Part shown: one piece after another, positions 4,907-27,213 of the stretch
Position numbering within the stretch: the stretch's first letter is position 1
Layout: the number at the start of each line of letters is the position of its first letter
Assembly (NCBI GenBank): GCA_014728015.1
Contig: WJMI01000019.1
Span: 1-35,451 of the forward strand
Reading direction: 5' to 3'
Source: Chitinivibrionales bacterium
Lineage (GTDB): Bacteria; Fibrobacterota; Chitinivibrionia; Chitinivibrionales; WJMI01
DNA length: 35,451 bases
The notes under the pieces: model-generated
What the model was told of the DNA's origin: nothing
Seen by the model: only the letters and a program-made list of their open reading frames with translations
Database searches by the model: none
Translations under genes and position numbers: made by a program

Positions 4907-4972
4907 GGATACGTACTCCTTACTTCGGTGTCTGCACGGCAACAGGAGACTTCACGTTCAAGGGAATTGGTT

Positions 4973-5367: not shown

Positions 5368-5450
5368 TTGAGTCGGGGTACCAGAAAGACGCCTGAAGCA
5401 CGATCTTAATTTAATTGATGCCCGACGTTTTCAGCCATTCGGGAACGACC

Positions 5451-7390: not shown

Positions 7391-8362
7391 ATGAAGAACG
7401 AGAATCGTAGAAAAAACCTGTACGCGCTTGTATTCGGATGCGCTTGCGCGCTCACGCTCCTCCTCGCGGCCGAGGGCATGGTCAGGGCGCTCGTTCCCCG
7501 CATTACCGCCCAGGGCCTTGACCAGGACCTGTTCTGCGACAGCCTGTTTGCCGCCAGCCCGGGATGGTGTCCCGGCAGCGCAGGCGTGTGTTTCGGGAAG
7601 ACCGTTCGCATAGATCAAAACGGCTATCGCGCGATTGCCGCGCCTGACAATACTTCGGTCTCCTGGCTGCTTCTGGGCGACTCCGTGACGTTCGGTATCG
7701 CGGTCGAAACGGACGGCACGTTCGCCGGCATGCTCCAGCGCGCCCATCCCGATGCCGCGATACGCAACAGCGCGGTGGTTGCCTACAAGACCGTGGATTA
7801 CCATGCAATCCTGCCGCGCCTGCTGTCGCGTCACGGGGATGCCGCGCGAGTCATCCTCTTCTATACGCTCAACGATATTTACAACAGGGATCAATCCCAG
7901 GTGAAGACCGAGATCAAGAACCCGATCATGTCCTTGCTCAGGAAACACTCGCGGCTGTACGTCTTCCTGAAAAGCGCGATTTCAGATCGCAGCAAGGCGT
8001 ATTTCACGAATGACTACCGGCGCTACGACGACGGCCATCTCGACGACATCGACACCACCGCCGCAATGATTTCATCCATGAATGCCCGCCTGGATTCAGC
8101 GGGCATCGATTTCCTCGTGGTATTGCTCCCCTACGAATATCAGATTCGCAAGGCTGACCGGCCCGCGCTGCGCCGTCCGCAGCGCCTCATGCACTCTCGC
8201 CTGACGGGCCTCGGTGTCCCCTGCATCGACCTGTTCGACGATCTCCGGAATGCCTGCCCGCGCAGCAAAGACTGCTACCTGTACGGAGACGGCATCCATT
8301 TCTCCGCCAAAGGGCATCGCGCGGTATTCGAGGCGGTAGAAAAACAGCTCGCGCTCCCCTAG
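7391..8362 (+). CDS. Membrane-anchored GDSL/SGNH-family hydrolase
   Basis: 323 aa with one N-terminal membrane segment (residues about 10-28) after a basic MKNENRRKN, so the catalytic part faces the periplasm. Block I is LLLGDSVTFGIAV (Ser98), block III is YTLNDI (Asn161), and block V is DGIHFSAKGH (Asp300, His303), so a complete Ser/Asp/His set is present. This group acts on acyl esters of lipids or polysaccharides; the substrate is unknown. It follows the CE3-like gene by 86 bp on the same strand and converges with the minus-strand polysaccharide cluster. Together with the C-terminal domain of the lipoprotein at 13652-16711 it makes three SGNH-type domains in 9.4 kb, pointing to acyl modification of the local glycan. 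Confidence 0.85.
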   Translation: MKNENRRKNLYALVFGCACALTLLLAAEGMVRALVPRITAQGLDQDLFCDSLFAASPGWCPGSAGVCFGKTVRIDQNGYRAIAAPDNTSVSWLLLGDSVTFGIAVETDGTFAGMLQRAHPDAAIRNSAVVAYKTVDYHAILPRLLSRHGDAARVILFYTLNDIYNRDQSQVKTEIKNPIMSLLRKHSRLYVFLKSAISDRSKAYFTNDYRRYDDGHLDDIDTTAAMISSMNARLDSAGIDFLVVLLPYEYQIRKADRPALRRPQRLMHSRLTGLGVPCIDLFDDLRNACPRSKDCYLYGDGIHFSAKGHRAVFEAVEKQLALP

Positions 8363-8404: not shown

Positions 8405-10117
8405 CTATGCCTCGTTCGGGCCAAAGCCGGGCAGGAATTTCTTGTTGAATGCCTGCTGGAGCCAGATCTCCAGGGTGGCATATTTCGCCACTTCGGGGCC
8501 GGCGTCCTGTCCCGCAACAAGGCGGTCCCAGCAGTTCTTTGCCGCGGTGTTTCCCGTCAGATCCCCGTAGAGCACGTCTGTGCCGAACAGCAGGCGCTCG
8601 AAAAAGCCCTGGAAGGGCCCGGCGCGCATCAACGACGAGCAATCAATGGTCCGCCTCGGCTCATCGTACGGCACCCCGGCCGCGGCCAGCATTCTTCTTG
8701 CCCGGCGATACGCGCCGGCGCTCAGGGAAAACATGCGCGACCACGGCCACGGCACGCTGACAGGGACGCCTGTTTTCTGCCAGGGTATTCTGGAGAAATA
8801 CGCGGGGTAGTTGTGCAAGAGAATGCGATTATACGTTCGCGAGTGAGTTCGCTGCGCATCCGGAATGGTCAGCATGAACTCCACCAGCGCGTTATCGTAG
8901 AACGGCATACGCACGCGCATAAAGGACTCATCATACCGGAAGCCCTGCCGGATATACCGGCGGCCGCGGTAACCGTAGGGATCGCCTGACGGGTCACGGG
9001 GCTGCCCGCGCATGCCGAGATATGATCCGCCGTGGATGCCGTCGCCGCCAATACCGTTCATGCACGCGTCACACATGCCGCCGAGGTCTTTGAGAAACTC
9101 ATTCCCGCACGCATCGGCCAGACACAGCTCCCCGTCAGTGGCCCACACACCTTCCAGGGCGGCCCCAAGCCAGTGCCCGGACGGCGTCTCAAATACGTGA
9201 TGGTCCGCGCCGGCAGCGCGCGCCACGCGCGATGCTATGCGAATGTCCGCGCAGCCTTTGCGGCCGAACGTCACCGCGGGTACCGGTGTTCGAAGCGAGC
9301 TCGCGGCGGCAAGTATGGCCCGCGAATCGAGCCCGCCGCTGAGCGTCACCCCGACGCGTTCCTCCGTGCCGCATCGCCTTCGCACGGCATCAACAAAGAG
9401 TTCTCCCCAGTGTTCGGCGATATCGCGGCCGCCCATTGCCCGTGAGCTTCCGGTTATCGAATCCCATGTCCAGTAGGTGCGCGATTCCGTTTTGCCGGTG
9501 CGCAGATCCAGGGTCAGCAGTGATGCGGGCGGAAGCACCCGGACCCCTTCCAGGAGCGTCTGCCCCGCCGTAAGGTAGTTGTAACGCAGGAAGTCGTCCA
9601 CGGCTTGGGCGCTGACCTTTGGCGAAAAACCCGGCAAGTCGAGAAACGCCTTTGTTTCAGAAGCCCATGCGAACCAGCCGGCCTGTTGTGTCCATCGGAC
9701 ATGGCGGAGCCCATATCTATCCGTTATGAGCGTAAGTCGGCGGCGCTTCGTATCGCAAATGGCTGCCGCGAAAAACCCGTCGATCCGGCGCAGCCAGTCC
9801 GTACCGGGATGGGCCAGGAAAAGGGCCAGAAGCAGTTCGGGATCGGTCTGTGCCGCCGTGCCGCGCAGCGTGCTCTTGAGCTCTTCCGGGTTGTAAATCT
9901 CACCGTCCAGCCACAAAAAGACCCCGTCCTGTTGAGCGCCGAGGCAATGCGCGGGAACAAAGCCGGGTTGTGAGACTCCCGCGCATACGAGCCCGCCCTC
10001 CAGCGTGCGCTCGCGGGCAGTCCCGTCGCGGGTTTCGATGAAGCTCCGCATACGCGTAAAGGCGCGCGTGGTATCAGTGACATCCGATTGCGCGGCGATT
10101 CCGTACAGTCCCGGCAT
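8405..10117 (-). CDS. Asparagine-synthetase-like amidotransferase lacking the glutaminase cysteine
   Basis: 570 aa in two domains. Residues 1-200 follow the Ntn-type glutaminase domain (LWLDGEIYN, IDGFFAAAI, LITDRYGLR), and residues about 235-480 the ATP-pyrophosphatase synthetase domain with the P-loop SGGLDS. The protein starts MPGLYGI, where active enzymes start MCGI-x-GI: the nucleophile Cys2, which must become the N-terminus, is Pro. Hydrolysis of glutamine is therefore not expected. It may use free ammonia or another amine, or make an amide or adenylate on a non-aspartate carboxyl, as in beta-lactam synthetase, which also lacks Cys2. A purine-rich AGGGGA lies about 10 nt upstream of the ATG. 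It is the last gene of the cluster. Homologues are common in exopolysaccharide loci, so amidation of a uronic or amino acid is a reasonable guess. Confidence 0.88.
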   Translation of the reverse strand: MPGLYGIAAQSDVTDTTRAFTRMRSFIETRDGTARERTLEGGLVCAGVSQPGFVPAHCLGAQQDGVFLWLDGEIYNPEELKSTLRGTAAQTDPELLLALFLAHPGTDWLRRIDGFFAAAICDTKRRRLTLITDRYGLRHVRWTQQAGWFAWASETKAFLDLPGFSPKVSAQAVDDFLRYNYLTAGQTLLEGVRVLPPASLLTLDLRTGKTESRTYWTWDSITGSSRAMGGRDIAEHWGELFVDAVRRRCGTEERVGVTLSGGLDSRAILAAASSLRTPVPAVTFGRKGCADIRIASRVARAAGADHHVFETPSGHWLGAALEGVWATDGELCLADACGNEFLKDLGGMCDACMNGIGGDGIHGGSYLGMRGQPRDPSGDPYGYRGRRYIRQGFRYDESFMRVRMPFYDNALVEFMLTIPDAQRTHSRTYNRILLHNYPAYFSRIPWQKTGVPVSVPWPWSRMFSLSAGAYRRARRMLAAAGVPYDEPRRTIDCSSLMRAGPFQGFFERLLFGTDVLYGDLTGNTAAKNCWDRLVAGQDAGPEVAKYATLEIWLQQAFNKKFLPGFGPNEA

Positions 10118-10162
10118 GGCAGTGCTGTCCCCTGTGTCTGGCGCCCACCGGCATGCGCGGCT

Positions 10163-11914
10163 TTACCGGACGGTGAGCACTTTCGCGGCAAAGGATTCAC
10201 GCGTGCCGCGGACTCGCAGCACGTGAAGCGAACGCAAAATACTAGGCGGGAGAGGAATGGTACGTTCCCTGTGATGCGCGGCGGCGATACGGCGCTGGAT
10301 ACAGCGCCTGCCGCGGGCATCGAATATCTCGACAATGACCGGGCGCGCGGTTTCCCATCCGGAGGGCAGTGTCAGGAAAAAACGTGCGTCTTGCATGCGG
10401 ACACGGACGGTTTCGCGCGCCGGGAGCCGCCCGCGTGTCTTCTGTTCGGCAAGCACCTGTCCGTAGGTCACCGCCCCGAAAGCATTGAGCCGACCGTGGC
10501 CGTAGTACGGGTCCCATCCCTCGGTGTCCTCAGCCGGATCGCCGATTTGATCGTCGGCCGAACCCTCGATGATATCCTGAATCTCCCCGGGAGTACGGCT
10601 CGAATCCTGGGCCACGAGCAGCGATGCCACGCCGGCCACGAGGGGCGCGGAGTACGATGTGCCGCCGCTGGCCGCGTTGTAGGCGCTGTCGTTGTCGTGC
10701 TGTATGAAATACACAAAATTCCCCGGGGCGACGATATCGAGCGCATCGCCGTAGTTGCTGCCGCTGTCCTCGCTCTTGTGCAAAAACGAAATCGTCCTCG
10801 TATCATCGGGATCAGTGCTTCCCACGGCGATGACCTTGCTGTATCTGGCGGGAAAGGATATCGGCGTATCGTTATCGTTCCCGGCCGATACAACGATCGT
10901 GACATTGCGGGCCACGGCGTAGTCTATCGCATCTTCGACGGTCCGCGACCGGACCGGATTGCCCAGCGACATGTTGATGACATGCGCGCCGTTGTCGGCG
11001 GCATAGATGATGGCCTCGTACATGGCGGCAAAAGTCGCGCCTTCGTTCTGGAGTGTATCTGCGGTGACCACCTTGAGCGCCATGAGACGACAGTTCCAGT
11101 CCACGCCGGCAAAACCGATCTCGTTGTTCGCATTGCAGGCAAGAAATCCGGCCACCGCGGTGCCGTGACCCAGGGTGTCTTCCGGATCGTTATCATCATC
11201 AACAAAATCCCACCCGACCATATCGTCGATATACCCGTTGCCGTCATCGTCAATATTGTTATCCGGTATTTCGCCGGGGTTCGTCCAGAAGCGTCCTGCC
11301 AGCTCCGGATGGTTTCTCTTGCATCCCGAGTCGATAATCGCCACGATAACCGCGCTGTCTCCCTGCGCGTACGCCCACGCTTCGGTCATGTCGATATCAG
11401 CATCGTCCTCGAATATGTCCCTGCCTTCAAAATTGTTGCCCCCGTCGTTGAACATCTGCCACTGCGCAAAGAAGTTATAATCGTTGGGACGGATCGTGTC
11501 GGCGGCGAGGGCGTGCGGCGCGCACCTGCGATTCAGCTCCGCGTATTCGAAATGCCCTGATTCCGAGTATGCCTTTACCAACGCGCGCGGATCGCGTGCC
11601 GGCGAAACAGTGACCTGGATGAGCCCTCGTGGTGCAGTGGAAGACGGCGACCATGGGCGCAGCTTCCGCACGGGCCCGCCTCCGTATCGACGGTTGAGGG
11701 CATCGAGTACGGCAAACGCAGATTCGCCGCCGGTCCGCGCATTAAGGCTCACACCGGTCTTCAGCTTCGCCAGGATGCCGGCGCTGGCAAGTGCATCGCT
11801 TTCATGCGGCGCGCGACTATCCGCCCGTACGCTCACTGGTCCACACAAGAGCAATACGGGCAGGAATAGCATTCTCAACGGAAAACAGTTCTTTCGCACG
11901 GCATGTTCCTTCAT
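10163..11914 (-). CDS. Secreted subtilisin-like serine protease (S8) with C-terminal sorting domain
   Basis: Up to 583 aa. It has a signal peptide (hydrophobic core LFLPVLLLCG), then a propeptide of about 110 residues resembling fervidolysin-type inhibitor domains (ending EYAELNRR). The catalytic domain carries Asp195 (AIIDSG), His250 (GHGTAVAG), the oxyanion Asn346 (SAGND) and Ser420 (GGTSYSAP), so the triad is complete. An insert NNIDDDGNGYIDD looks Ca-binding. The last 80 residues (FDARGRR ... AKVLTV) resemble Por/type-IX secretion C-terminal sorting domains, as does the end of the protein at 24752-26944. The ATG at 11914 is used here. A GTG at 11899, preceded by AAGGAA, is an equally plausible start. 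Likely secreted or surface-anchored, possibly maturing neighbouring exported proteins. Confidence 0.9.
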   Translation of the reverse strand: MKEHAVRKNCFPLRMLFLPVLLLCGPVSVRADSRAPHESDALASAGILAKLKTGVSLNARTGGESAFAVLDALNRRYGGGPVRKLRPWSPSSTAPRGLIQVTVSPARDPRALVKAYSESGHFEYAELNRRCAPHALAADTIRPNDYNFFAQWQMFNDGGNNFEGRDIFEDDADIDMTEAWAYAQGDSAVIVAIIDSGCKRNHPELAGRFWTNPGEIPDNNIDDDGNGYIDDMVGWDFVDDDNDPEDTLGHGTAVAGFLACNANNEIGFAGVDWNCRLMALKVVTADTLQNEGATFAAMYEAIIYAADNGAHVINMSLGNPVRSRTVEDAIDYAVARNVTIVVSAGNDNDTPISFPARYSKVIAVGSTDPDDTRTISFLHKSEDSGSNYGDALDIVAPGNFVYFIQHDNDSAYNAASGGTSYSAPLVAGVASLLVAQDSSRTPGEIQDIIEGSADDQIGDPAEDTEGWDPYYGHGRLNAFGAVTYGQVLAEQKTRGRLPARETVRVRMQDARFFLTLPSGWETARPVIVEIFDARGRRCIQRRIAAAHHRERTIPLPPSILRSLHVLRVRGTRESFAAKVLTVR

Positions 11915-11974
11915 TCGAGCCTGAGAGCGTGCTGCCCCTCTTCCTGTCTCAAATCACTGTCTCGCAAAGAGGTG

Positions 11975-12004
11975 TCTATACCCCCTAAATGCAATATATC
12001 GCAA
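11975..12004 (-). promoter_or_regulatory. Candidate promoter for the subtilase gene
   Basis: On the minus strand TTGCGA (12004-11999) and TATAGA (11980-11975) are 18 bp apart, 61 bp upstream of the ATG at 11914. The 161-bp gap here is the largest inside the cluster, so an internal promoter is plausible. Confidence 0.35.
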
Positions 12005-12075
12005 GAATGACCGGAGCGGGCGGACAAATGCGGCTCGGCTTTTTAGTATTAACCCGCCCATCCGCACGCCGCAAC

Positions 12076-13623
12076 TCAGGCAATTTCGCGCACGGCAAAC
12101 ACCTTGAAACGACCGGCCCGGCCTATCTTGCGAAGGCGGAGATCGTTGAGCGTTCCGCTGTAAATAGCATGCAGCACCGGCGAAAGCCGGCGGCTTTCAT
12201 CGGTCAGAACGAGCATTCGTATCCCCAGGGCATAACAGTCACTGATGAAATCGTTAATATCGTCTACTGCAAGCTCGGGATACACGCGGCTGTACCCGTA
12301 TGCCGCAATCCGACCCCAGCCCCCGTTGTAGAGCGGACGCGGCGAGTCAAAGGCGGGAAAGTAGATATCGAAATCAGTGGCAAATACCTGCATACCACTT
12401 CGCACGCCATGCAACGCGACCAGTTCCCCGACCCGCCGATACACGTTCCTGTTCTCGAATATCCGTTTCACCTTGGGAACGTCTCTTCCTGCAAACATCG
12501 CGGCAGCCGCAATCAGAAGCACTGCGGGAATGATATGCGGCGCATTGCCGGAGCGGGGCACGCGCCGCCGGATAATGCCAGTCACTTCTGCGGCAAGCAT
12601 GCCGGCGAACACAAATGAAATGGGCACCACCAGGAGGACCGCCCGGGGGCTGGCGCTCATGCCGAACATGAGCGCATAGGTAGCGCAGAACATGAAACAT
12701 ATGCCGCTTGCCATCCTGGCCGGCTCGCCTCGCGCCCGGAGAAGCATGACCAGGCCGGGGATGGATGCCAGGCCGAGGCGTGCGGCCCCGCCCCCGTAGG
12801 AAACAACGAAACGCAGCGGATGGGAGGCGATCAGGGCGGGAATCGACATCCCGGACGGCAGTTCGCTCACACGGTGCCAGTTGACACCATACATCAGGTT
12901 GTACACGTTGATCCCGTGACACGTTTCAAGAAGGCCGTGGCCGGTTGCCGCGTTGATTGCAAACTGTGGTGCGTACACCGCAAGCATGGCCACGCCGCTG
13001 ATCAGGATTCGCAGCCAGTGGCCGGGACGGAATGCGAACACGGCCACGAGAAAAAGCACACCCGCGACCAGGGCATGATATCGCCACAACGCGGCCAGGC
13101 CGAAAAGGACCCCGCCAATCACATACACGCCGGTCCGTCCGCCGGTTTCGCGGGATGCAACGAGCTGCCCGAGGATGATTGCCGTGCCAAGGGTAAAAAA
13201 GCCCACGGCGCCCATGTCCGCACCCGCCGTGAATACATAGTGGAACATGCGCGGGTAGAGGGACACCAGTATCACCGGCACCACGGACCACCAGCCGGGC
13301 ATCATGCGGCGGCAGAGCCAGAAAGTCGAAGCCAGGACCAGGGCGGCACAAGCACAGTTGAGCAGGTAGGAAAAGGCAACAACATCCGTCAGAGAGGCGG
13401 CCGCGCGAAGCAGGAATGGATACCCCGCGGGAAATGCACCGCTGTAAAGCGATTCGGGAACATGGTCAAAGAGATGCATGGCAATGTACCAGTTCCCCCA
13501 GAAATCATTCGTCGATACAAGGAAGCCTGTGGATATGCCCAACACAACGCCGAACGCGACATATAATGCGATATACGCCGCGGCCGTGAAAGACCGGGGA
13601 TACCAGGTGAGCATCTTGATCAT
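12076..13623 (-). CDS. Polytopic GT-C-type membrane glycosyltransferase (PMT/ArnT-like)
   Basis: 515 aa with roughly ten hydrophobic helices spread over residues 12-395 and a soluble C-terminal tail of about 120 residues. After the first helix comes STNDFWGNWYIAMHLF; an acidic residue in this first periplasmic loop is the hallmark of GT-C enzymes, which use polyprenyl-phosphate sugars as donors. Length and layout fit the PMT_2/GT39-GT83 group that includes ArnT. The weak conservation outside the first loop means substrate assignment is not possible. A GGAG (13632-13635, minus) lies 8 nt from the ATG. It follows the FGE lipoprotein by 28 bp in the same operon. It could transfer the aminopentose or another lipid-linked sugar onto lipid A, glycan or protein at the periplasmic face. 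Confidence 0.75.
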   Translation of the reverse strand: MIKMLTWYPRSFTAAAYIALYVAFGVVLGISTGFLVSTNDFWGNWYIAMHLFDHVPESLYSGAFPAGYPFLLRAAASLTDVVAFSYLLNCACAALVLASTFWLCRRMMPGWWSVVPVILVSLYPRMFHYVFTAGADMGAVGFFTLGTAIILGQLVASRETGGRTGVYVIGGVLFGLAALWRYHALVAGVLFLVAVFAFRPGHWLRILISGVAMLAVYAPQFAINAATGHGLLETCHGINVYNLMYGVNWHRVSELPSGMSIPALIASHPLRFVVSYGGGAARLGLASIPGLVMLLRARGEPARMASGICFMFCATYALMFGMSASPRAVLLVVPISFVFAGMLAAEVTGIIRRRVPRSGNAPHIIPAVLLIAAAAMFAGRDVPKVKRIFENRNVYRRVGELVALHGVRSGMQVFATDFDIYFPAFDSPRPLYNGGWGRIAAYGYSRVYPELAVDDINDFISDCYALGIRMLVLTDESRRLSPVLHAIYSGTLNDLRLRKIGRAGRFKVFAVREIA

Positions 13624-13651
13624 GAGGTGTTCTCCACGCGCGGCGAAGCGC

Positions 13652-16600
13652 TCACGGAAGAAACGTCTGGAGTACGCTGTCTATCCGCGCGCTCAGCCTT
13701 GTCGCGCCGGTGTAGTTCAAATGGTTGCTGTCGAACGCATCGCCTGCCGTGTAGTCATGTTGGCCGCCGGCATGGGCATCATAAAAATGGAAATAGCTGT
13801 TTTGACTTTCGAGCGTTTCGAGCCGGGAAACGATCTGGGCATAGGTGGTCCATGACGGGCCGTACCGCCCCATGTGGCTGGTATTCGCATATGCCGGGCT
13901 CTGCGGGAAATTGACGACCAGGAGGTGAATCGCCCGCGCCGATGCCGAATCCGCGAGCGCCTCGACTGAAACGAGATTCTCCGCCACGATTGAATCACTC
14001 AGGCTGTAATCCCCCTGTTCCAGCGGCGCGCTGCCCCAGCTTTCGCCCGTGTAGCGACGTTGCAGGAATCCCAGCGTATCGTACCCTGTCCATGACGATG
14101 AATCAAATGCGCTGATTTTGCTCTTTATTTCGCCCGGCAGGGCGGTACGCCAGAAATCGTTGCCCGAGTCGAACGCATACCCCTTGCTGTCATACAGGCC
14201 GGTCATAAACGGCGGCTCCTCGGTAAAATCCCGATCCAGAAAGCCGGGATCGAGCGCCATGCCGATTACCTTCAGGTTGTCTAAATGCGGGAGCGCGTAG
14301 TTTCTGGCCACGGTCACGCTCGTGAACGGATCGCTTCCCTTGGTAGCCATGGAGAGCATGCGCACGCTCGACACGAACGCGGGGTTGACTCCATGATATG
14401 CCGGAGAGCTCCCGAAAAACACCGCATCGATTTCATCACGATACTTCCACATCAGCTTGAGTTTCTTTCCCAGAATATCCTGACCCGTGCACTGTATGGG
14501 CAGGTCGTATTTGGCGAAGTCGGCATAGGGATCGGGGAGTTCGGCAACCTCGGCCGGGTCTATCCACAGCCACGGATCGCGCAGTCCCCGCCCCCGCGCG
14601 ACCGGCAGGTACGCGGACGTTTTCAGGTTGATAAGATATACCCGGTCGTCCGCATCCGTGGTGCGCCCCTGCGCGACGGCCACGGCAAAATCAGGATGGT
14701 TGGTGTATTCCACGTGGTTCCACGAATCAAAGCCGGAGGGCGTCTCATACCAGGAAACCACGTGCTCATCGCTGAGCAGTTTCGAATTGCACTGGAAGAT
14801 GATCTCGTGCAGGCCATAGGAAGATCCCACGACCGAGCTCGTTTTCGAGTATCCGAAATCAAGCAGCAGGACATGATCGGTGAATTCCACGCTCGGAGAA
14901 ATCGACACGTTGCAGGTCTGCGGGTTGTCATCCCTGCCGTTGTACGGCGCGCGGAAATACAGAAGCGTGGTATCGCCCAGCCGCAGGTCGACCAGCCGCG
15001 CGGCAGTGTACCCCGTGGCAAGGAAACGCCCGTCACTGGACAATCCGCCATGGTACGAGCCGTCATCCCACAGCACGTGGGCATCGCCGTCAAATGACAT
15101 GCCGGTGATAGCGTGCTTGTATGTCTTCTCGTTGTGCCACCCGGCGCTCGAATTAATCGACGCGCCGTCGGAATAGACAAGAAACGTGTCGGCCGATGCC
15201 GAGTCGGTCCACCACCGGGGAATGTACGCCTTCCGGCTTGCGGAAGTCGCGAGCGCATTCTGCCCGGCGGGGTCGAATGGACGGACGATAACCCGCGAGG
15301 GGCTGCTGCGGCCCACCCCCTGGGTGCTGTACGCGATACGCGATCCATCGGGCGAGATCGTCGGATGAAAGCTCAGCGAGTCGTCCAGCACGAACGGCGC
15401 AATGTCGGCCCGCATGAAATCGACGGCATACAGCCGGGTACGCGCAGTGGTGCGCTGTACAAATACGAGTTTCACGTTGGCTGTTCCCACGAACGAAACG
15501 AAATCCGATTTCTCCGCCGTCCGGGTTACCGAAAGAGAATCCGGGACAGTATCCACGACCGGGCCGGCTGAATCCGGAACAAAAAACGCGCCCAGCACGG
15601 TGCGGAACCCGATCTCATGCATGCGCACCTTGGCCGGGGTCTCGTAGGGACCCAGGCGCCGCGCGCTCGCGCGCAAGTATGCCGTGCCCACGTCGAACGC
15701 CCCCCCGCGGACCGGGCGCTCCCACGAGGATTCGAACTCTTCGAGCGCGAGATGCGCCGGGCCGACCGGGTTTACCGCCAGGGAATCGTCGTATGCGCCC
15801 AGCCAGTCGTTGACCCATTCGGCAACATTGCCGCTCATGTCATACAAGCCGAATGCGTTCGGCTGCTTCAGGCCCACCGCGTGCGCGCGGTTGGCGGCAT
15901 TATCGAAGTACCATGCATAGGTGGCGGCATCGCCGGGCGAATCCCCCCAGTAGAAATCGGCTGCGCTGCCTGCCCGGCACGCGTATTCCCACTCCGCCTC
16001 GGTAGGAAGCCGGAAGCCGAAACGGTCGTAATGAATGGTCAGGTTCTCCAGCACGTAGGGGCAGCTCTGATCGTCCGCGCAGCACGCGGTGTAGCTGTAT
16101 ACCGTATCGTATCCTTCATCCTTGCTCCGCGCATTGCAGAACAGGACCGCTTCGTACCACGTGATGTCAAACACGGGAATACTGTCGCCCGCATCGACAT
16201 AACCGCCCGCAGCCGCCGGATCATGACCCATCAGGTCCCGGTAGTGCTTCTGGGTAATCTCGAAGGGATCCATGTGGAAATCATAGGTGAAGGAAACTTC
16301 GTGCACGGGATCTTCTATCCCGGCCACAGCCGGGCCGCTGTTCGATCCCATCTCGAACACGCTGTCCCGCGCGGGAACGAGGATCATCGCATCGGGACGG
16401 GCGGCAAACCGGCCTTCGATGCTCATGGACCTTCGGGCCACGATGACAAGCGGGTTTTCGGTAGACTGCGTATCGCCGAACCACCCGACAAATACATTGC
16501 CGCTGTCCGGCGCGGCCGACAGTACCACCACGGCGCCCGGTTGTACGCTCGAATCCGGCGGTATCATGGAGACGGTGCCCTGCCCGTCGGGAGCAACGGA

Positions 16601-16711
16601 AATGGTGACTCTATCTGAGCCGACCGGCGGGAAGTCCCGGCAGCATGCGAGAAACAGCAGGCACATGCCGGCGACAGCGGTTCTGGGCACAATAGAAAAA
16701 CGGGTATTCAT
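13652..16711 (-). CDS. Giant lipoprotein: InlB-type repeat, cysteine-less FGE-sulfatase domain, beta-propeller, C-terminal SGNH-like domain
   Basis: 1019 aa. The signal peptide ends in FLACC (Cys23/24, lipoprotein). Residues 34-105 form one bacterial InlB/Flg_new-type repeat (VGWFGD ... NPLVIV ... MSIEGRF). Residues about 107-375 are an FGE-sulfatase fold: FEMGSN, LPTEAEWEYACR, GLYDMSGNVAEWV, RPVRGGAF and IGFR. Both FGE catalytic cysteine positions are replaced, so oxidase activity is not expected and a binding role is likely. Residues about 400-720 are a propeller sharing GGLSSDGRFLATGY and CNVSISP with the lipoprotein at 3491-4906. The last 255 residues begin FFGSSPAYHG (S768/S769) and end DSNHLNYTGA (D994, H997), recalling block I and block V of DltD/AlgJ-type SGNH domains. 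Domain set and size suggest the Fibrobacter family TIGR02171, recalled not searched. ATG 16711; a GTG at 16714 is adjacent. Confidence 0.85.
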   Translation of the reverse strand: MNTRFSIVPRTAVAGMCLLFLACCRDFPPVGSDRVTISVAPDGQGTVSMIPPDSSVQPGAVVVLSAAPDSGNVFVGWFGDTQSTENPLVIVARRSMSIEGRFAARPDAMILVPARDSVFEMGSNSGPAVAGIEDPVHEVSFTYDFHMDPFEITQKHYRDLMGHDPAAAGGYVDAGDSIPVFDITWYEAVLFCNARSKDEGYDTVYSYTACCADDQSCPYVLENLTIHYDRFGFRLPTEAEWEYACRAGSAADFYWGDSPGDAATYAWYFDNAANRAHAVGLKQPNAFGLYDMSGNVAEWVNDWLGAYDDSLAVNPVGPAHLALEEFESSWERPVRGGAFDVGTAYLRASARRLGPYETPAKVRMHEIGFRTVLGAFFVPDSAGPVVDTVPDSLSVTRTAEKSDFVSFVGTANVKLVFVQRTTARTRLYAVDFMRADIAPFVLDDSLSFHPTISPDGSRIAYSTQGVGRSSPSRVIVRPFDPAGQNALATSASRKAYIPRWWTDSASADTFLVYSDGASINSSAGWHNEKTYKHAITGMSFDGDAHVLWDDGSYHGGLSSDGRFLATGYTAARLVDLRLGDTTLLYFRAPYNGRDDNPQTCNVSISPSVEFTDHVLLLDFGYSKTSSVVGSSYGLHEIIFQCNSKLLSDEHVVSWYETPSGFDSWNHVEYTNHPDFAVAVAQGRTTDADDRVYLINLKTSAYLPVARGRGLRDPWLWIDPAEVAELPDPYADFAKYDLPIQCTGQDILGKKLKLMWKYRDEIDAVFFGSSPAYHGVNPAFVSSVRMLSMATKGSDPFTSVTVARNYALPHLDNLKVIGMALDPGFLDRDFTEEPPFMTGLYDSKGYAFDSGNDFWRTALPGEIKSKISAFDSSSWTGYDTLGFLQRRYTGESWGSAPLEQGDYSLSDSIVAENLVSVEALADSASARAIHLLVVNFPQSPAYANTSHMGRYGPSWTTYAQIVSRLETLESQNSYFHFYDAHAGGQHDYTAGDAFDSNHLNYTGATRLSARIDSVLQTFLP

Positions 16712-16738
16712 CACTAGGAATACGTGAATCCGGCGGCA

Positions 16739-17587
16739 TTATGCCTTTCGCGCCACAATGACATCCTGAAAATTCGTGTTCGTCGTCTCGCGGCACCAGC
16801 GGCCATACAGGACAGGTTGTTCCACGACCAAACCTGCCGCGGCGTATGCTTCCAGAAGCCAGTCTTCTTCAAGACCGATATTGAACTCGGGGGTCTTCAG
16901 GCTTACCGTCCGGTAATGCTCACCGGTGTATTTCATGTCGAGTGACGTGGTCCCGGCTTCGATGCGGGCCGCCGAGTGGCCGTTGATCAGGTTCGCCGTA
17001 GCCACGCACGTCCCCCCGCGCTTCAGGACACGGCATAACTCTTCCAGGTAGTGCTTTACATCAGGAGGAAGCATGTGCGTGAATACCGATGTGAGAAACG
17101 CGAAGTCAAAAGCTTCATTCTCAAAGGGAAACCGGTAGTCAGCCGGCATGACGGACCCTTTTCGATTGTACATCCTGTTGTAGATATCGGCATGATGGAA
17201 CCGGAAATGCGGGTATCGCGACGTGATATGCCGCGTGCACCAGGAAACACCCGCGCGCACGATTTCCAGGCCGTGATACCGGGCATCCGGCGAAAGGTAA
17301 TCGACGAGCCCGACCGCCATCCGGCCCATCCCGGAGCCGACATCGAGCACGGCATCATCGGGTTTCAGGCCGCAATCTTTGAACAGCGCGCTGAAACGCT
17401 CCCCTATCTCGCGATAGTTCCCCCTGCCGGTAAACACCTTCCACCGCGGCGGCACCAGCGGATCCCGTTTTCCGGAAAGCAGGTCGGCGGCCGTTGCCGG
17501 AAGATGATACACGAACCTGCCGGCGGGCGTATTGTACAGCCACCGGGCGAACGAATTGTTGTAGAACGTTCTACTCAGCGTATTCAT
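16739..17587 (-). CDS. Class I SAM-dependent methyltransferase
   Basis: 282 aa. The SAM-binding motif I is VLDVGSGMGRMAVGL, followed by an acidic LEIV (motif post-I), DFAFLTSVFTHM (motif II region) and LKRGGTC (motif III), all typical of Methyltransf_11/25 enzymes. A preceding region of about 80 residues (ARWLYNTPAGRFVY, PPRWKVFTGRGNYREIG) is family-specific and probably forms the lid. The ATG at 17587 is chosen because it follows the FemAB-like gene's stop by only 4 nt; an in-frame ATG at 17632 lies inside that gene. Placed between FemAB and the FGE lipoprotein, it is likely to methylate a sugar or glycan substituent. S-adenosylhomocysteine produced here would be cleared by the ahcY product at 33916-35346. 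Confidence 0.85.
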   Translation of the reverse strand: MNTLSRTFYNNSFARWLYNTPAGRFVYHLPATAADLLSGKRDPLVPPRWKVFTGRGNYREIGERFSALFKDCGLKPDDAVLDVGSGMGRMAVGLVDYLSPDARYHGLEIVRAGVSWCTRHITSRYPHFRFHHADIYNRMYNRKGSVMPADYRFPFENEAFDFAFLTSVFTHMLPPDVKHYLEELCRVLKRGGTCVATANLINGHSAARIEAGTTSLDMKYTGEHYRTVSLKTPEFNIGLEEDWLLEAYAAAGLVVEQPVLYGRWCRETTNTNFQDVIVARKA

Positions 17588-17591
17588 ATTT

Positions 17592-18569
17592 CTACGCGCC
17601 TGAAGCAGCGATGCGTTTTGCCGCACCGACAAGTTTCTGTATCCCGCTGCGCCGTATGACCACCCTGCTGGGCAGCTCCCTGCATCCCAGATGCTCCTTG
17701 AAGCTCGCTACTCCCGGGCTCCCGCCGCTGGGATTCATGTCGAACCAGTGGTATCCGCGCGCCGCGGCATCGCGCATGATTTCGTAGTACATGTAGTGGT
17801 TTGCCCGGATGCCGAAATCCTCCCTGGATGCGGCGGCATGCCACGCGACCGCGTGGGTATTCCAGTAGAAGCATATCACGCTGGCAAGCTGCCTGCCGTC
17901 GCGCTGGGCCGCCCACAGCACAATGTGATCCGACTGGTTCTCGCGCAACGCCTCGAAGAGCCGCCACCGGTAATCGGTAGAAGGTTTGCGCCACCGATGC
18001 CGGAGCTGCCGGTATGAGTCGAAATGCCGCCGCCAGTCTTCCACCGCCCCGGCCCGGCCAACGACCACCCCGCCGCGTTTTGCCTTGTTCACCGCGTTGA
18101 CATGGCCCCGGGACCAGCGAGCATATACCGGATCAAACCCCTCCCGAAGGTCTACCGCGTGCGTGTTGTCAGTGGCGCTGCCGGGAATATCGATTTCTCC
18201 CAGCAGCGGATCGTAGGGATTCTCCCGCCAGATGAGATTCGGAAGCCGCACCAGATGCGCGGCCGCCGCCCGGGCGTGTCCCGCGTTCAACGAATCGGCG
18301 GTGACCCAGCCGCCGAACGTGCCTGCGGGCGACGATACAAGTCGCGTTATCCCCAAACGCAAGCGTTTGCGGCACATCGCTACCACCAGCGCTGCGCCGT
18401 CGTCAAATGCAATCCATACGGGCTCCGGCATCACAGCGCCCCGGGTGTAGGCGGAAAATGCTTCGGCCCACATCGGCGTGTGAAAAAAAGTCGCATACGG
18501 ACACGCTTCGGCGGCACGAAGCCACTCATCCCGGGTTGCCGATCGTGTTTCCGTGATTGCCGCGCTCAT
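17592..18569 (-). CDS. FemAB-like/GNAT-fold aminoacyl- or acyltransferase
   Basis: 325 aa of the FemAB-related acetyltransferase (BioF2-like, PF13480) type. It starts with the usual WLRAAEACPYATFFHTPMW segment (x-FxTPxW). The second GNAT half reads HVNAVNKAKR, DSYRQL, LASVICFYWN, then NHYMYYEIMRDAAARGYHWFDMNPSGGSPGVASFKEHLG; F-D-x-x-S-G-x-x-x-G-V-x-x-FK is the conserved end of the family. FemAB proteins transfer an aminoacyl group from aminoacyl-tRNA onto an amino group of peptidoglycan, and relatives occur in exopolysaccharide loci. Here it sits after a radical SAM enzyme and before a methyltransferase, in an operon that also makes an amino sugar. An amino acid or acyl addition to the glycan is therefore the favoured inference. 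Confidence 0.83.
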   Translation of the reverse strand: MSAAITETRSATRDEWLRAAEACPYATFFHTPMWAEAFSAYTRGAVMPEPVWIAFDDGAALVVAMCRKRLRLGITRLVSSPAGTFGGWVTADSLNAGHARAAAAHLVRLPNLIWRENPYDPLLGEIDIPGSATDNTHAVDLREGFDPVYARWSRGHVNAVNKAKRGGVVVGRAGAVEDWRRHFDSYRQLRHRWRKPSTDYRWRLFEALRENQSDHIVLWAAQRDGRQLASVICFYWNTHAVAWHAAASREDFGIRANHYMYYEIMRDAAARGYHWFDMNPSGGSPGVASFKEHLGCRELPSRVVIRRSGIQKLVGAAKRIAASGA

Positions 18570-18596
18570 GCGATTTTCTGGCCCCGCCCGTTTCCG

Positions 18597-19688
18597 TTAC
18601 ACCGCGGCATCCACCCGCTTCCGGAATGCCGCGATGTCGAAATCCGGATTGATGTTCGTCTTCACGAATTCCTCAAGCCCGGCATAATCCCTATCACCGA
18701 GCCGCCCGTGCAGGCCGCGAAGGTACACCGGCGCCGCATTGCTCTCCATGCCGAGGAACAGCATGTCAAGCCAGCTCTCGCAGTTGCAGATGGTCGAGCA
18801 TGAAAAATCGATGTCACGTCCGAACCGGGCCTTGGCCGCCTTGACAGTCTCCGCGAGCGCATGTTTGAGCCCGCGGATCGAAACAAGCTTGCGCACGGGC
18901 ACGTGCGCGACAGCCGCCTTCAGGGGTACGTTCATGGGACATGCCGAAATGCGTCCTTCGGGACTCACCCGAATCGTGAAGAACTGGTTAAAGCATTCGA
19001 TGCACGAAAACGTTGTGTGCCTGCGCACGCTGTCAAAGGTATGCATGACATGCACGCCCCGTTCGCGCAGTCCCTGATACGTGCACTCGAATTCCTCGAG
19101 AAGATCGTCCCGCAGGAGAATTGAAAGCGGCCCGTCAGGCGGCATGACCGGCGTCAGCGACAGCACGATCGAGGGCGCAACCCGATGGATCCTGTCGGCC
19201 AGCTCGCCCAGACTGCCGAGATTGTTTTTGGTAACCACCGTGTTCACCGCGAGTTCGACACCGTTCATGGCTGCATCATCCACGATAGCACCGAGTTTGT
19301 CGACCACGCGGTTACCATCGATGCCCCGCGTTGCCCGGTTCACGTCGCCGGGACCGTCAACGCTCACCACGAGCCTGTCGATATACGGGAATGCCGGGAC
19401 AGCCTTGTGCGGCTGCGTCCCGTTGTGCACGATCCGGATAAAGGGATTGAAACGTGATTTCAGGTCCCGCACGATATCGGGAAGTCCGGCAACCAGGGTC
19501 GGTTCCCCGCCGGAGATATTGACTATCTTGGGAGCGAATCGCTCGAGGCCGGCGGCGATCCGTCTATAGTCGACACGTTCGTTCGCGCCGGCAGGACGCA
19601 TGACGGTGTGGTCGCAATACGTGCACGACAGGTTGCACCGGTGCGTGATTTTCCACGTGCATATCCAGGCAAAGTTATCCCTCGCCAT
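18597..19688 (-). CDS. Radical SAM enzyme with extra C-terminal cysteines (SPASM-like)
   Basis: 363 aa. The radical SAM cluster motif is C18-NLS-C22-TY-C25, followed by the SAM-binding ISGGEPT (residues 59-64) and an SVDG strand. Further cysteines at 229, 232, 250, 297, 301 and 303 could hold an auxiliary iron-sulfur cluster as in SPASM/twitch proteins, although the spacing is not textbook. The first ATG overlaps the end of the flippase gene by 14 nt and has AAGGGG 7 nt upstream, so start and coupling are well supported. No known subfamily is recognised. The context (flippase before, FemAB-like after) argues for sugar, amino-acid or peptide modification in the polysaccharide pathway. No small precursor-peptide gene was found next to it. 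Confidence 0.87.
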   Translation of the reverse strand: MARDNFAWICTWKITHRCNLSCTYCDHTVMRPAGANERVDYRRIAAGLERFAPKIVNISGGEPTLVAGLPDIVRDLKSRFNPFIRIVHNGTQPHKAVPAFPYIDRLVVSVDGPGDVNRATRGIDGNRVVDKLGAIVDDAAMNGVELAVNTVVTKNNLGSLGELADRIHRVAPSIVLSLTPVMPPDGPLSILLRDDLLEEFECTYQGLRERGVHVMHTFDSVRRHTTFSCIECFNQFFTIRVSPEGRISACPMNVPLKAAVAHVPVRKLVSIRGLKHALAETVKAAKARFGRDIDFSCSTICNCESWLDMLFLGMESNAAPVYLRGLHGRLGDRDYAGLEEFVKTNINPDFDIAAFRKRVDAAV

Positions 19689-21216
19689 TCGACGGCCCCT
19701 TGCTGAAAGCCGAGTGCAGCAGCCGGTTTACCGTATGCCATGCTTCCCTGAAAACAATATACAATACAAGGAGATAGGCGCCTGTGCCCGCGGCGCCGGC
19801 GGCCAGGACCCGCGATACATGGGCCGCAGGAGATCCGCCCGGCACAAGCCCTGCAACGGCAAGCACTACGCCAAGCATTGCCGCTCCGCACGCCACGGCG
19901 GGGACCAGCGATCGCAGATAGCGCAGGGGTGACAGGCCCACAACGTGTTGCGTAACAAACAACACGACCGGAAACAGGAGTATGGCACGGATGAGGAGCG
20001 CCCAGCACACGCCCATCATGCCGAATACGCGCCCGATAAGCACCGCGGCGCAAACAGTGACCAGCGCGAGAAGCGCCCAGCCTACGCGAAGCCAGGCCCG
20101 TCCCTTGGCGATCCAGAGTATGCCCGGATAGCTCGTGAACGAGTAGAGAATTCCCACCGGGACAAGTACGCGCAGCGGCCCGGCCGCGGGGAGCCATTTC
20201 GTGCTGGGCTTGAGGAATGTCACGGCATGCATCAGGTCCGGCGCCATGCCGCCGACCAGCACCAGAAACGGTGTCGCGGCAATCGAGACCACCACGGTGA
20301 GACGGATAAACCACACGTTCAGGCGATCGTTGTCATCCTGGAAACGCGACAGGGCAGACAAGGCGACGTTTGCAAGCACGACACCAAGCGCAAGCTGCGG
20401 CAGTGTAACAATATCGTACGCCACGCCGTAGACACCGAGCGCTGTCGCCCCGAATGTCTTGCCCACCACAAGGTAGTCTACGTTGCGCGCGCCGTAATCG
20501 ATGATGCGCTGGCAGACCATGGCAACGCCGAAGGCGAACAGGGGAAGGGCGCGCTCAACCGCCGTGAAATATCCTCCGAACCACGGTCCGTTTACAAAGA
20601 GAAGCGTGGTCGACAGGCCGAAGAACGTAACGGTCCCCCAGACGAGCGACCAGACGCCAAACCCCGCAAAGGCGAGGGCGAGAGAAACGGATGCCCCCGC
20701 GATCGCGCCCGCGACTTCGATCCCCGCGAGACGGCCGTAGCGGAACCGTCGCTGGAGCATCGCCCGGTGCACGACCGAAACACCGCTCACTGGGACCGCA
20801 ATCGCCCCCACCCGTATCAGATCGGTCAATTGCTTTTCCCCAAAGAATGATGCGAATACCGGCGCGAGCACGAATGCGATGCAATACAGGCCCATGCTCA
20901 AGACAAGGTTGAGCGTGAATACCGGCGCCAGCTCGGCTTTGCCCAGTTTCTTTTTCTGGACTATCGCAACACCCAGGCCGGCCTCGTTGACAAGATTCAG
21001 GACACCCAGCACAATAGTCACATAGCGTACCAGGCCGAAATCGTCCGGGTCCAGAAGATTCATCAGAAGCACGTGAACCACGAACACGAACGCGTACCGG
21101 ATTGCCTTGGCAAGACCCACCGCCATGCTCGAGCGCGCCGCTATCCTGCCCAAACCTTCGCCGGCACGCGGCACGGGATCGAATTCCGTTTGCGGTATTT
21201 GGCTGGTGTCAATCAT
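19675..21216 (-). CDS. Wzx-type oligosaccharide flippase (MOP superfamily)
   Basis: 513 aa with about 12-14 hydrophobic helices from residue 30 to the C-terminus. The N-terminal segment IAARSSMAVGLAKAIRYAFVF and then LLDPDDFGLVRYVTIVLGVLNLVNEAGLGVAIVQ are the typical first two helices of Wzx/polysaccharide biosynthesis proteins (LxPxDFGxxxxxxxxxxxxxxxxDxGLxxAxxQ). It would move the undecaprenyl-linked repeat unit across the inner membrane. The ATG at 21216 overlaps the TGA of the upstream GT4 gene as ATGA, which decides the start; the frame continues further upstream only as antisense-like noise. Its end overlaps the radical SAM gene by 14 nt. No Wzy polymerase is obvious in the window, though the GT-C protein at 12076-13623 is another polytopic candidate. 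Confidence 0.9.
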   Translation of the reverse strand: MIDTSQIPQTEFDPVPRAGEGLGRIAARSSMAVGLAKAIRYAFVFVVHVLLMNLLDPDDFGLVRYVTIVLGVLNLVNEAGLGVAIVQKKKLGKAELAPVFTLNLVLSMGLYCIAFVLAPVFASFFGEKQLTDLIRVGAIAVPVSGVSVVHRAMLQRRFRYGRLAGIEVAGAIAGASVSLALAFAGFGVWSLVWGTVTFFGLSTTLLFVNGPWFGGYFTAVERALPLFAFGVAMVCQRIIDYGARNVDYLVVGKTFGATALGVYGVAYDIVTLPQLALGVVLANVALSALSRFQDDNDRLNVWFIRLTVVVSIAATPFLVLVGGMAPDLMHAVTFLKPSTKWLPAAGPLRVLVPVGILYSFTSYPGILWIAKGRAWLRVGWALLALVTVCAAVLIGRVFGMMGVCWALLIRAILLFPVVLFVTQHVVGLSPLRYLRSLVPAVACGAAMLGVVLAVAGLVPGGSPAAHVSRVLAAGAAGTGAYLLVLYIVFREAWHTVNRLLHSAFSKGPSNGEG

Positions 21217-22343
21217 GCGAGCACCGCCCTGTATGCCCCGGTGATTTCCTTCACGCGGACACGGATATCGTGCCGCGCGGGGGCGACCGCAAACGCCCGT
21301 TCCGCCATGCGCCGGCGCATCCCGGCATCGCGAGCAAGCCGCGCGAGGTTCTCGGCGAGCATGCCGGTATCTCCCTCGGCGCATACCAGGCCTGTTTCTC
21401 CGTGAGACACTATGTGCGGGATATCGCAGTGGGTCGTGCCGACCACCGGCACGCCGGCAAGCAGCGACTCTATCACGCACACGGGCGCGCCGCCCTCGGT
21501 ATCGCCGTCGGGCGCCGTGATGCTGGGCGCGAGGAGGATATCGCTCGAGCCGAGCAGTTCGAGGTACCGCCCGGGATCGACGTAGCCGTGATACGTGACG
21601 CGTTTCCGCATGCCGGCCCGGGAAAGAATTCGCTCCGTCACCCGCCGAAACGGTCCGTCGCCAACGATGTGCAGTTCCAGGGAAGGCGCCTTCCGGGCCG
21701 CATCCGCGAATGCCCTGACCGCGTGCACGGGGCCCTTCTTGCGTCGGGCAAGCCCGACATACAGTACTCGGACAGCTTCGGAAGATGCGTTTCTTTTTGC
21801 ATGGCGCCGCACGCGTTCAGCATCCGCCGCCTGGTATATCACCCTGATCTTATCGCGCGGGCATCCCAGCGCCGCGATACGCGATGCCATGTGCGGACCC
21901 TCCGCAATGAAAAGCCGTCCCAGATCAAACAGCCTGAGATACCGGCGCTGCCAGGCGCGCCGGCGCGCCAGCTTGTCCACGTCGACCCCGTAGAACGTCA
22001 CGACCAGCGGCAGCCCTGTTGCCCGCACGAGATCGATGCTTCGCCAGGCCTCGGGCGCGAAATGGCCGTGCAGCAGATGCGGTTTCTCACGACGGATCAT
22101 TTCCAGGTAAGGTCCTGACGGGTACCTGGCGCGGATGCGCGCCAGGAGCATGCTGAGCGAGGCAAACATGCCGTATGTATCGAAAACCGGGTACACGCTG
22201 TCGAGCGGGAAGAGATCCCCATGCTGCCGGTACCGGCACAGCACGCATGCATCACATTCGGTGTTGCAGGCAATCTCGTTGTGCATCCACCCCTGGGTGA
22301 GGGGAAGATAGGAATTGATGAGATGCGCTACCTTGATTCGCAT
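21213..22343 (-). CDS. Family 4 glycosyltransferase (GT-B)
   Basis: 376 aa. The N-terminal MRIKVAHLINSYLP and LLHGHFAPEAWRS are typical of the acceptor domain. The C-terminal donor domain shows VLYVGLARRKKG, LHIVGDGPFR, VTYHGYVD, LAPS and EGGAPVCVIESLLAGVPVVGTTHCDIPHIV, the conserved E-x7-E region of GT4 retaining enzymes. Just after the first domain starts, four Cys residues (CNTECDACVLC) are crowded between residues 26 and 36, an oddity that might bind a metal. Coupled to wzx by ATGA and only 3 nt after the second GT4 gene. It probably adds one sugar to the lipid-linked repeat unit. Confidence 0.92.
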   Translation of the reverse strand: MRIKVAHLINSYLPLTQGWMHNEIACNTECDACVLCRYRQHGDLFPLDSVYPVFDTYGMFASLSMLLARIRARYPSGPYLEMIRREKPHLLHGHFAPEAWRSIDLVRATGLPLVVTFYGVDVDKLARRRAWQRRYLRLFDLGRLFIAEGPHMASRIAALGCPRDKIRVIYQAADAERVRRHAKRNASSEAVRVLYVGLARRKKGPVHAVRAFADAARKAPSLELHIVGDGPFRRVTERILSRAGMRKRVTYHGYVDPGRYLELLGSSDILLAPSITAPDGDTEGGAPVCVIESLLAGVPVVGTTHCDIPHIVSHGETGLVCAEGDTGMLAENLARLARDAGMRRRMAERAFAVAPARHDIRVRVKEITGAYRAVLA

Positions 22344-22346
22344 GGT

Positions 22347-23504
22347 TCACCCGTCGAAAAGCCCGGCATAAATCCGTTCTATCGCGGCAAAATGGCCCGC
22401 GTACGAGAATTTTCTGGCAAGCTCCCCGCGTGCCGAACGGCCCATCGCGCGGCGGCGTTCTTCATTCGATATAAGCTCGACGACCCGACGCGCGGCCGAG
22501 TCGATATCCCCGTGCGGCACGAGATAGCCCGACATGCCCGAAGTAAAGCATTCGGCCACCCCGCCGCTTGCGAACGCGACAACAGGAACTTCCATGGCCA
22601 TGGCCTCGAGCACCACGCCGCCGAGGCCCTCCTGCCAGCGGGGAACGTGCACGAATACGCCGGTATGCGCAAGCAACCCGGGCACCTCCCAATGCGGGAC
22701 CGGTTGGAGCACGGACACCGCGCGCTCGAGATCGTGCTCGCGTATCATGGCCATGACGCGATCGTAGTATGACTCGTGGTGGGGCGCCCTGTTCCCGAGA
22801 ATCACGAACTGCGCGCGCCCGGGAAGGTCGCGTTGAACGCCGGCGGCCAGCCGGACGAAATTGTCATGGCCCTTTACTTCCACGAATTTCGCGATGCTGA
22901 GCACGCAGATGCGCCCGCTGTCCAGTGCCGGGTGGCGTTCGTAGCGACGTTTCGGATCGAACACTGCCGGGTCGGGGCCGGGATTATACACGGTAGATGC
23001 CCTGGCGCTTTGACGGCCGTAGTACCCCCGCACCGCTTCGGAGATGCATACGACCCGATCGACAAACAGCGCTGTCCATGCGCGGTACAGCACGCGGACC
23101 GGGGCGCGCTCGAGACTCACCCGCAGATGCGCGACCGCCCGGCATCCCGCCAGCCGTGCCGCCGGATAAAACGGCATATCGATGACATCAGAGAAGTGCA
23201 CGAGCCGGATGCCGTTTCCGCGCAGATACCGCACGAGGGCGGGTACAGCCGCGACGGTGCTGCAAAGGGATGCCAGAAACAAGGCCGGTCTCGCCGGGGA
23301 GCGCAGCCGGGCGAACGGGAGTATCTTGACTGTTACGTGAAGATCGCGCAGGCGCGCCGCCAAGGAGCCCTCGCCGGGAAGCACGGCATGGACGTCCCGG
23401 CCGTGACGGCCGCTGAAATGCTCGATAAGCTTGAGCGTGCTTATCGGCATGCCGGTATCCAGCTCCGTAAGGGAGCAGAAAAAACAGAGTGCGCGTGGCT
23501 TCAT
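22347..23504 (-). CDS. Family 4 glycosyltransferase (GT-B)
   Basis: 385 aa. It opens with KPRALCFFCSLTELDTGMPISTLKLIEHF and has HFSD in the acceptor half. The donor half carries SIAKFVEVKGHDNFVRLA, FVILGNR, VHVPRWQEGLGGVVLEAMAMEVPVVAF and GGVAECF, the E-x7-E nucleotide-sugar pocket of GT4 enzymes. The ATG at 23504 is chosen because homologues begin near the first beta strand. An ATG at 23552 in the same frame would add 16 Arg-rich residues and bring the gene within 7 nt of the aminotransferase stop, so it remains possible. Neither site has a good Shine-Dalgarno sequence. Substrates are unknown. Confidence 0.9.
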   Translation of the reverse strand: MKPRALCFFCSLTELDTGMPISTLKLIEHFSGRHGRDVHAVLPGEGSLAARLRDLHVTVKILPFARLRSPARPALFLASLCSTVAAVPALVRYLRGNGIRLVHFSDVIDMPFYPAARLAGCRAVAHLRVSLERAPVRVLYRAWTALFVDRVVCISEAVRGYYGRQSARASTVYNPGPDPAVFDPKRRYERHPALDSGRICVLSIAKFVEVKGHDNFVRLAAGVQRDLPGRAQFVILGNRAPHHESYYDRVMAMIREHDLERAVSVLQPVPHWEVPGLLAHTGVFVHVPRWQEGLGGVVLEAMAMEVPVVAFASGGVAECFTSGMSGYLVPHGDIDSAARRVVELISNEERRRAMGRSARGELARKFSYAGHFAAIERIYAGLFDG

Positions 23505-23558
23505 AGAGCTGTCGCGATGCCTGGTCCGCGCGCGTGCCCGCCGGCGCGGCATCGCTGG

Positions 23559-24743: not shown

Positions 24744-24751
24744 GGGCCGTC

Positions 24752-26944: not shown

Positions 26945-27048
26945 AGTATGATTACGGTGCCTCTCATGCATTATTTGCGCGAGCAGGAGGGTCGAAAACG
27001 GTGTGCGTCCCCGTGCGTGACAGGGCCGGCGCGTATCGAAGCACGAGT

Positions 27049-27124
27049 TGGTGGAGCTGAGGGGGATCGAACCCCTGACCTCGGCATTGCGAACGCCGCG
27101 CTCTCCCAGCTGAGCTACAGCCCC
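27049..27124 (-). tRNA. tRNA-Ala(CGC)
   Basis: A 76-nt cloverleaf with encoded CCA (27051-27049). The acceptor stem GGGGCTG/CAGCTCC contains the G3-U70 wobble pair that identifies alanine tRNAs. The D stem is GCTC/GAGC, the anticodon stem CGGCG/TGCCG with loop TTCGCAA (anticodon CGC at 27091-27089), and the T arm AGGGG-TTCGATC-CCCCT. All stems pair, with one G-U closing the anticodon stem. It reads GCG codons. Confidence 0.97.
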
Positions 27125-27134
27125 AACATGCACC

Positions 27135-27163
27135 AAAATACATAAACGACCGGCGGCCTTCAA
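27135..27163 (-). promoter_or_regulatory. Candidate promoter for tRNA-Ala
   Basis: On the minus strand TTGAAG (27163-27158) and TATTTT (27140-27135) are exactly 17 bp apart, and the -10 box ends 10 nt before the tRNA 5' end, as expected for a short-leader tRNA transcript. It may also feed the downstream polysaccharide operon, since I see no clear terminator between the tRNA and 26944. Confidence 0.5.
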
Positions 27164-27213
27164 GCGCGGGGGCGCCAATTCCGCGCCCGGTCATGCGCGA
27201 AAACGGCATGCTG

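Follow-up and report, generated by a model that had tools for sequence, protein, structure and literature searches.

The window analysed here is a 35,451-nt contig (WJMI01000019.1) of a Chitinivibrionales bacterium in the phylum Fibrobacterota, whose genome is a 4.2-Mb draft in 428 contigs. The gene at the centre of this study occupies positions 13652..16711 on the negative strand and encodes a TIGR02171-like lipoprotein of 1,019 amino acids, with an ATG start at 16711 (a GTG one codon upstream is a possible alternative) and the stop codon at 13652-13654. In line with the first-pass annotation, which had described a four-part lipoprotein, the product begins with a signal peptide and lipobox, LFLA-C23 (16643..16711, negative strand), whose cysteine is invariant in seven aligned orthologues. 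Residues 36-102 (16406..16606, negative strand) match the InlB B-repeat family of Pfam as had been proposed (PF18998, E value of 5e-7); this repeat is present in all five orthologues scanned and missing from the four TIGR02171 relatives scanned. The closest orthologue, L038, carries two such repeats. An FGE/C-type-lectin-fold domain follows at residues 108-372 (15596..16390, negative strand), then a probable beta-propeller at about residues 409-717 (14561..15487, negative strand) and an SGNH-fold domain at residues 742-1019 (13655..14488, negative strand). The InlB, FGE and SGNH parts of the proposed layout thus stood, while the propeller is weakly supported by TolB and PD40 matches, the PD40 match at residues 448-463 being under the Pfam cut-off, and by a beta-rich secondary structure. 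The latter was all that we took from the full-length AlphaFold2 model, which was poor (pLDDT 46, pTM 0.34).

The FGE-fold part was confirmed as one that lacks the FGE active site. It matches PF03781 with an E value of 5e-37, yet the columns of the catalytic cysteine pair, which we presume from the human FGE motif, are occupied by V341 and the Y345/L346 region, and neither holds a cysteine; nor are cysteines usual at these columns in the family. Among solved structures in the PDB, the Treponema variable protein Tvp1 is closest in sequence; next come an entry labelled CotH, the PorK/GldK lipoproteins and FGE. GldK/PorK and Tvp1 share the FGE/C-type-lectin fold with this part and employ it without FGE catalysis, and we know of no SGNH or propeller part in these proteins. 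A binding or structural role is therefore a reasonable reading of this domain from its sequence.

Residues 131-1016 match the NCBIfam family TIGR02171 over nearly its full length (profile positions 59-910 of 912, E value of 7e-139), with a score of 464 bits against a curated cut-off of 544 bits; by NCBI's own rule, and judged by this score, the lipoprotein is a related subfamily and not a TIGR02171 member. TIGR02171 is an uncharacterised paralogous lipoprotein family of Fibrobacter succinogenes, and its NCBIfam entry names no SGNH domain. Both are lipoproteins in which FGE, propeller and tail follow one another, but the protein studied here has the additional InlB-like repeat and a D-x-N-H motif in place of N-x-D-H, and its genome holds two long TIGR02171-type members only, in contrast to the larger paralogue sets of Fibrobacter. 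Since TIGR02171 already spans FGE, propeller and tail as one family, the arrangement is of a known kind, contrary to the earlier suggestion that such a fusion had not been described. Our literature search found no paper naming TIGR02171 and, for the combination of SGNH, FGE, propeller and lipoprotein, no title describing such a fusion. The TIGR02171 profile has matches in 165 of 168 Fibrobacterota genomes, many of them apparently through the FGE part only, and the C-terminal domain itself occurs in 104 of the 168. Related loci were found in Chitinivibrionales, Chitinispirillaceae and Fibrobacter MAGs, and an orthologue-seeded scan of genome contigs, which reaches no more than close relatives, returned matches in Fibrobacterota only. 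Three short relatives (L127-L129) combine FGE and tail without a propeller, and the parts are therefore modular. A further TIGR02171 relative, L130, is split across two frames, which points to a disrupted gene or a misassembly. The window also contains a second lipoprotein gene (3491..4942, negative strand) whose product is akin, by profile and blastp matches, to the propeller part of TIGR02171 (positions 279-624, E value of 2.8e-9); the match is confined to that part, and the product has a further C-terminal domain.

The tail had been proposed to be an SGNH-like domain that starts with FFGSSP and finishes with DSNHLNYTGA, and these motifs indeed lie from residues 764 and 994, respectively. 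An AlphaFold2 model of residues 720-1019, built on a seven-sequence alignment, predicted an alpha/beta SGNH-type domain and not an unrelated fold (pTM 0.79, mean pLDDT 72.8, with most of the core exceeding 70). In support of this, most top matches in a PDB fold search with the model were SGNH/GDSL acylhydrolases; PatB was among the first five (E value of 9e-4), and carbohydrate esterases were found as well. In the predicted topology, strand 1 leads into G-S-S769, and D994-x-x-H997 stands ahead of the final helix, the arrangement known from SGNH enzymes. A profile of the tail found no match among PDB sequences at E values up to 10, and no Pfam SGNH family exceeded its cut-off in the tails of 23 members scanned, ALGX, Lipase_GDSL and SGNH giving weak matches. 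According to the model, the tail is an SGNH domain in the canonical S...DxxH order, an assignment that is new here.

Conservation narrows the set of catalytic residues suggested earlier (S768/S769, D994 and H997). The predicted nucleophile Ser769 (codon 14405..14407, negative strand), within the G-S-S motif, and the predicted base His997 (codon 13721..13723, negative strand) are invariant in 42 of 42 sequences, and S768 is replaced by N or C in three orthologues. The predicted DxxH acid, Asp994 (codon 13730..13732, negative strand), is invariant in this orthologue group only: all 11 orthologues keep it, and with it the Block I serine and the Block V D-x-x-H, while 26 of 31 paralogues have N at this position. 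Across the wider family the acid varies, with D-x-N-H in 10 of the 11 orthologues and D-x-S-H in the remaining one, N-x-D-H in 24 of the 31 paralogues (nearly all from Fibrobacter), and D-x-D-H in the second copy of the source genome. H985, D986 and D848 are also invariant among the tail relatives. A clear Block III Asn was not found in the tail alignment, which shows an N-x-A/G-like stretch at 787-789. One could argue that the SGNH fold serves binding or scaffolding only, given that the FGE part is already inactive, that most relatives have shifted or lost the acid of DxxH, and that no Pfam SGNH family was detected above its cut-off. However, the invariance of S769 and H997 extends to paralogues that are only about 25 to 28% identical to the tail, and we regard a non-catalytic protein as unlikely.

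The likeness to DltD/AlgJ drawn in the first-pass annotation implied transfer of acyl groups from an MBOAT partner. AlgJ and AlgX have the SGNH superfamily and polysaccharide acylation in common with the tail and its proposed role, but they are circularly permuted, with H before S and a DxH motif (PMC9487903), in the order H-S-G-N. Because S769 precedes H997 in canonical order, the tail is not AlgJ/AlgX-like. The DltD family gave no match among the Pfam or NCBIfam results for the protein. DUF1574/DltD-type SGNH proteins encoded beside MBOAT genes share the GSSxxxxG-x-x-P, LN-x-A/G and HLxxxGA motifs with the tail; unlike the tail, they are stand-alone proteins, and one of them clearly has a hydrophobic helix at its N-terminus. 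The tail profile retrieved such stand-alone relatives of 311-422 amino acids with the same motifs from other Fibrobacterota genomes (G036, E value of 8e-15; G006, 2e-6; G153, 3e-4); the DUF1574 match of one of them is under the cut-off. In G006 and G153, an MBOAT gene directly adjoins the tail relative, and its product ends in FIYFQF, which places a Tyr close to the C-terminus; in PatA, the acyl group is carried by an invariant Tyr within the C-terminal hexapeptide (PMC12148441). The simplest history would be one in which an MBOAT-coupled SGNH domain was fused onto an FGE lipoprotein.

These relatives, together with the place of PatB among the best fold matches, speak for an acyltransferase that, like PatB with its partner PatA, receives acyl groups from an MBOAT and places them on a glycan of the periplasm or the cell surface. 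PatB resembles the tail in fold and in its canonical S...DxxH order, with no detectable sequence similarity, but it pairs with the MBOAT PatA, whereas the lipoprotein has fused FGE and propeller parts and no linked or dedicated MBOAT. The window yielded no MBOAT, and the two MBOAT genes of the source genome (G000:C276 and G000:C225; L143 and L144) each directly adjoin an ALGX-type gene. G015, a genome that is 97% complete, carries the orthologue but lacks an MBOAT. MBOAT genes are present in 12 of the 13 genomes with the orthologue versus 11 of the 27 without, a correlation which may reflect genome size and which we rejected as confounded support. Moreover, an outer-membrane lipoprotein would sit far from an inner-membrane donor. 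Despite the MBOAT neighbours of the remote tail relatives, MBOAT-dependent transfer thus lacks gene-neighbourhood support here, and we consider it unlikely.

The lipoprotein gene lies within a same-strand cluster (8405..24860, negative strand) that encodes an Asn-synthase-like amidotransferase, a subtilase, a membrane protein, the lipoprotein, a methyltransferase, a FemAB-like protein, a radical SAM protein, a flippase, two glycosyltransferases and a DegT aminotransferase, and that is, as far as predicted functions tell, a glycan biosynthesis cluster. The Asn-synthase-like (8405-10117, negative strand) and FemAB-like (17592-18569, negative strand) products resemble the XrtA/PEP-CTERM-cluster families TIGR03108 or TIGR03019, far under the cut-offs. 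The surroundings bear on the idea that the lipoprotein is a cell-bound carbohydrate esterase acting on external substrates, such as plant or algal polysaccharide esters. Carbohydrate esterases among the fold matches would fit it, as would the degradation of plant fibre by cultured Fibrobacter (PMC3079729), but the gene is surrounded by genes for glycan synthesis, and the scanned proteins included no glycoside hydrolase; we find this idea highly improbable.

Close to the cluster, on the positive strand, lies a gene (5415..7304) for a protein with PKD repeats and a C-terminal GDSL/SGNH domain that keeps the GHS, G-x-N and DxxH motifs. Among 40 genomes of the order, 13 have the lipoprotein orthologue (in G003 and G021 as fragments at contig ends). 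The PKD-SGNH protein, matched via its GDSL domain, was found in 12 of these 13, whereas the 27 genomes that lack the orthologue gave no match (Fisher 2e-9, with no correction for kinship). Orthologue and partner share a contig, in either order, in nine genomes (G000, G002, G003, G016, G020, G021, G022, G032 and G038). They are scattered within genera and families, with both in G016 and neither in its congener G017, and common descent alone therefore does not explain the association. Genomes with the lipoprotein thus nearly always encode a further protein of its predicted enzyme class. Adjoining the PKD-SGNH gene is one for a third SGNH protein (7391..8362, positive strand), with a GDSL_2/ALGX match and intact GDS, ND and DxxH motifs. 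Profile-profile comparison of the tail with these two neighbouring SGNH proteins gave no match, the same result as with an unrelated control.

A PorZ-like T9SS protein with a Por secretion tail is encoded 8 kb from the lipoprotein gene (24752..26947, negative strand; NF052228, 77 bits against a cut-off of 260; TIGR04183 over its cut-off). Its start is probably near 26947, because the open reading frame 24752-27178 would overrun the tRNA-Ala gene just upstream (27049-27124, negative strand). In 7 of the 13 genomes, a PorZ-like homologue is encoded no more than about 10 kb from the orthologue, although two of these homologues are only 25-27% identical. As a specific co-occurrence partner the PorZ-like gene was rejected, since it has matches in all 40 genomes, and its proximity alone is informative. 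In Porphyromonas gingivalis, PorZ hands A-LPS to the T9SS sortase (PMC8545088); with the PorZ-like gene nearby, a link of the lipoprotein to a cargo-anchoring glycan is possible but unproven. Taken further, the lipoprotein and the PKD-SGNH protein might form an outer-membrane editor of acyl groups on a T9SS cargo-anchoring glycan of Fibrobacterota, A-LPS-like and handled by the PorZ-like protein, with an SGNH domain derived from an MBOAT-coupled transferase whose MBOAT was lost, a scenario that we deem decidedly speculative.

The computational results establish the domain layout, the SGNH fold, the conservation of the active-site residues, the co-occurrence with the partner and the setting in the cluster. 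On this basis, we give an even chance to the lipoprotein being an envelope O-acyl esterase, or an MBOAT-independent transferase, that acts with the PKD-SGNH partner on the cell's own surface glycan. The protein would be anchored in the envelope by its lipid, and its FGE/lectin-fold and propeller domains would probably bind the surface glycan or a partner protein. The SGNH domain, which conservation and model suggest to be catalytic through Ser769-Asp994-His997, would strip ester-linked acyl groups from the cell's own surface polysaccharide, presumably the glycan that the cluster synthesises, and the dedicated PKD-SGNH protein would work together with it. We lean toward hydrolysis, or else transfer without an MBOAT, because no MBOAT turned up in the window, both MBOATs of the genome have ALGX-type neighbours, and G015 has none; of the two activities, transfer seems the less likely. 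The surface-anchored acyl-transfer or esterase device proposed earlier thus holds as a likely esterase or acyltransferase, though less so in the MBOAT-dependent form that DltD/AlgJ would imply.

These findings point to an enzymatic function for the tail in a large, uncharacterised family of lipoproteins, one that is common throughout a single phylum and has expanded in Fibrobacter, a fibre-degrading rumen genus. The alternation of D-x-N-H and N-x-D-H within the family amounts to a natural experiment on the SGNH active site. Finally, the analysis names a dedicated partner protein and connects the family with glycan synthesis and perhaps also with type IX secretion.
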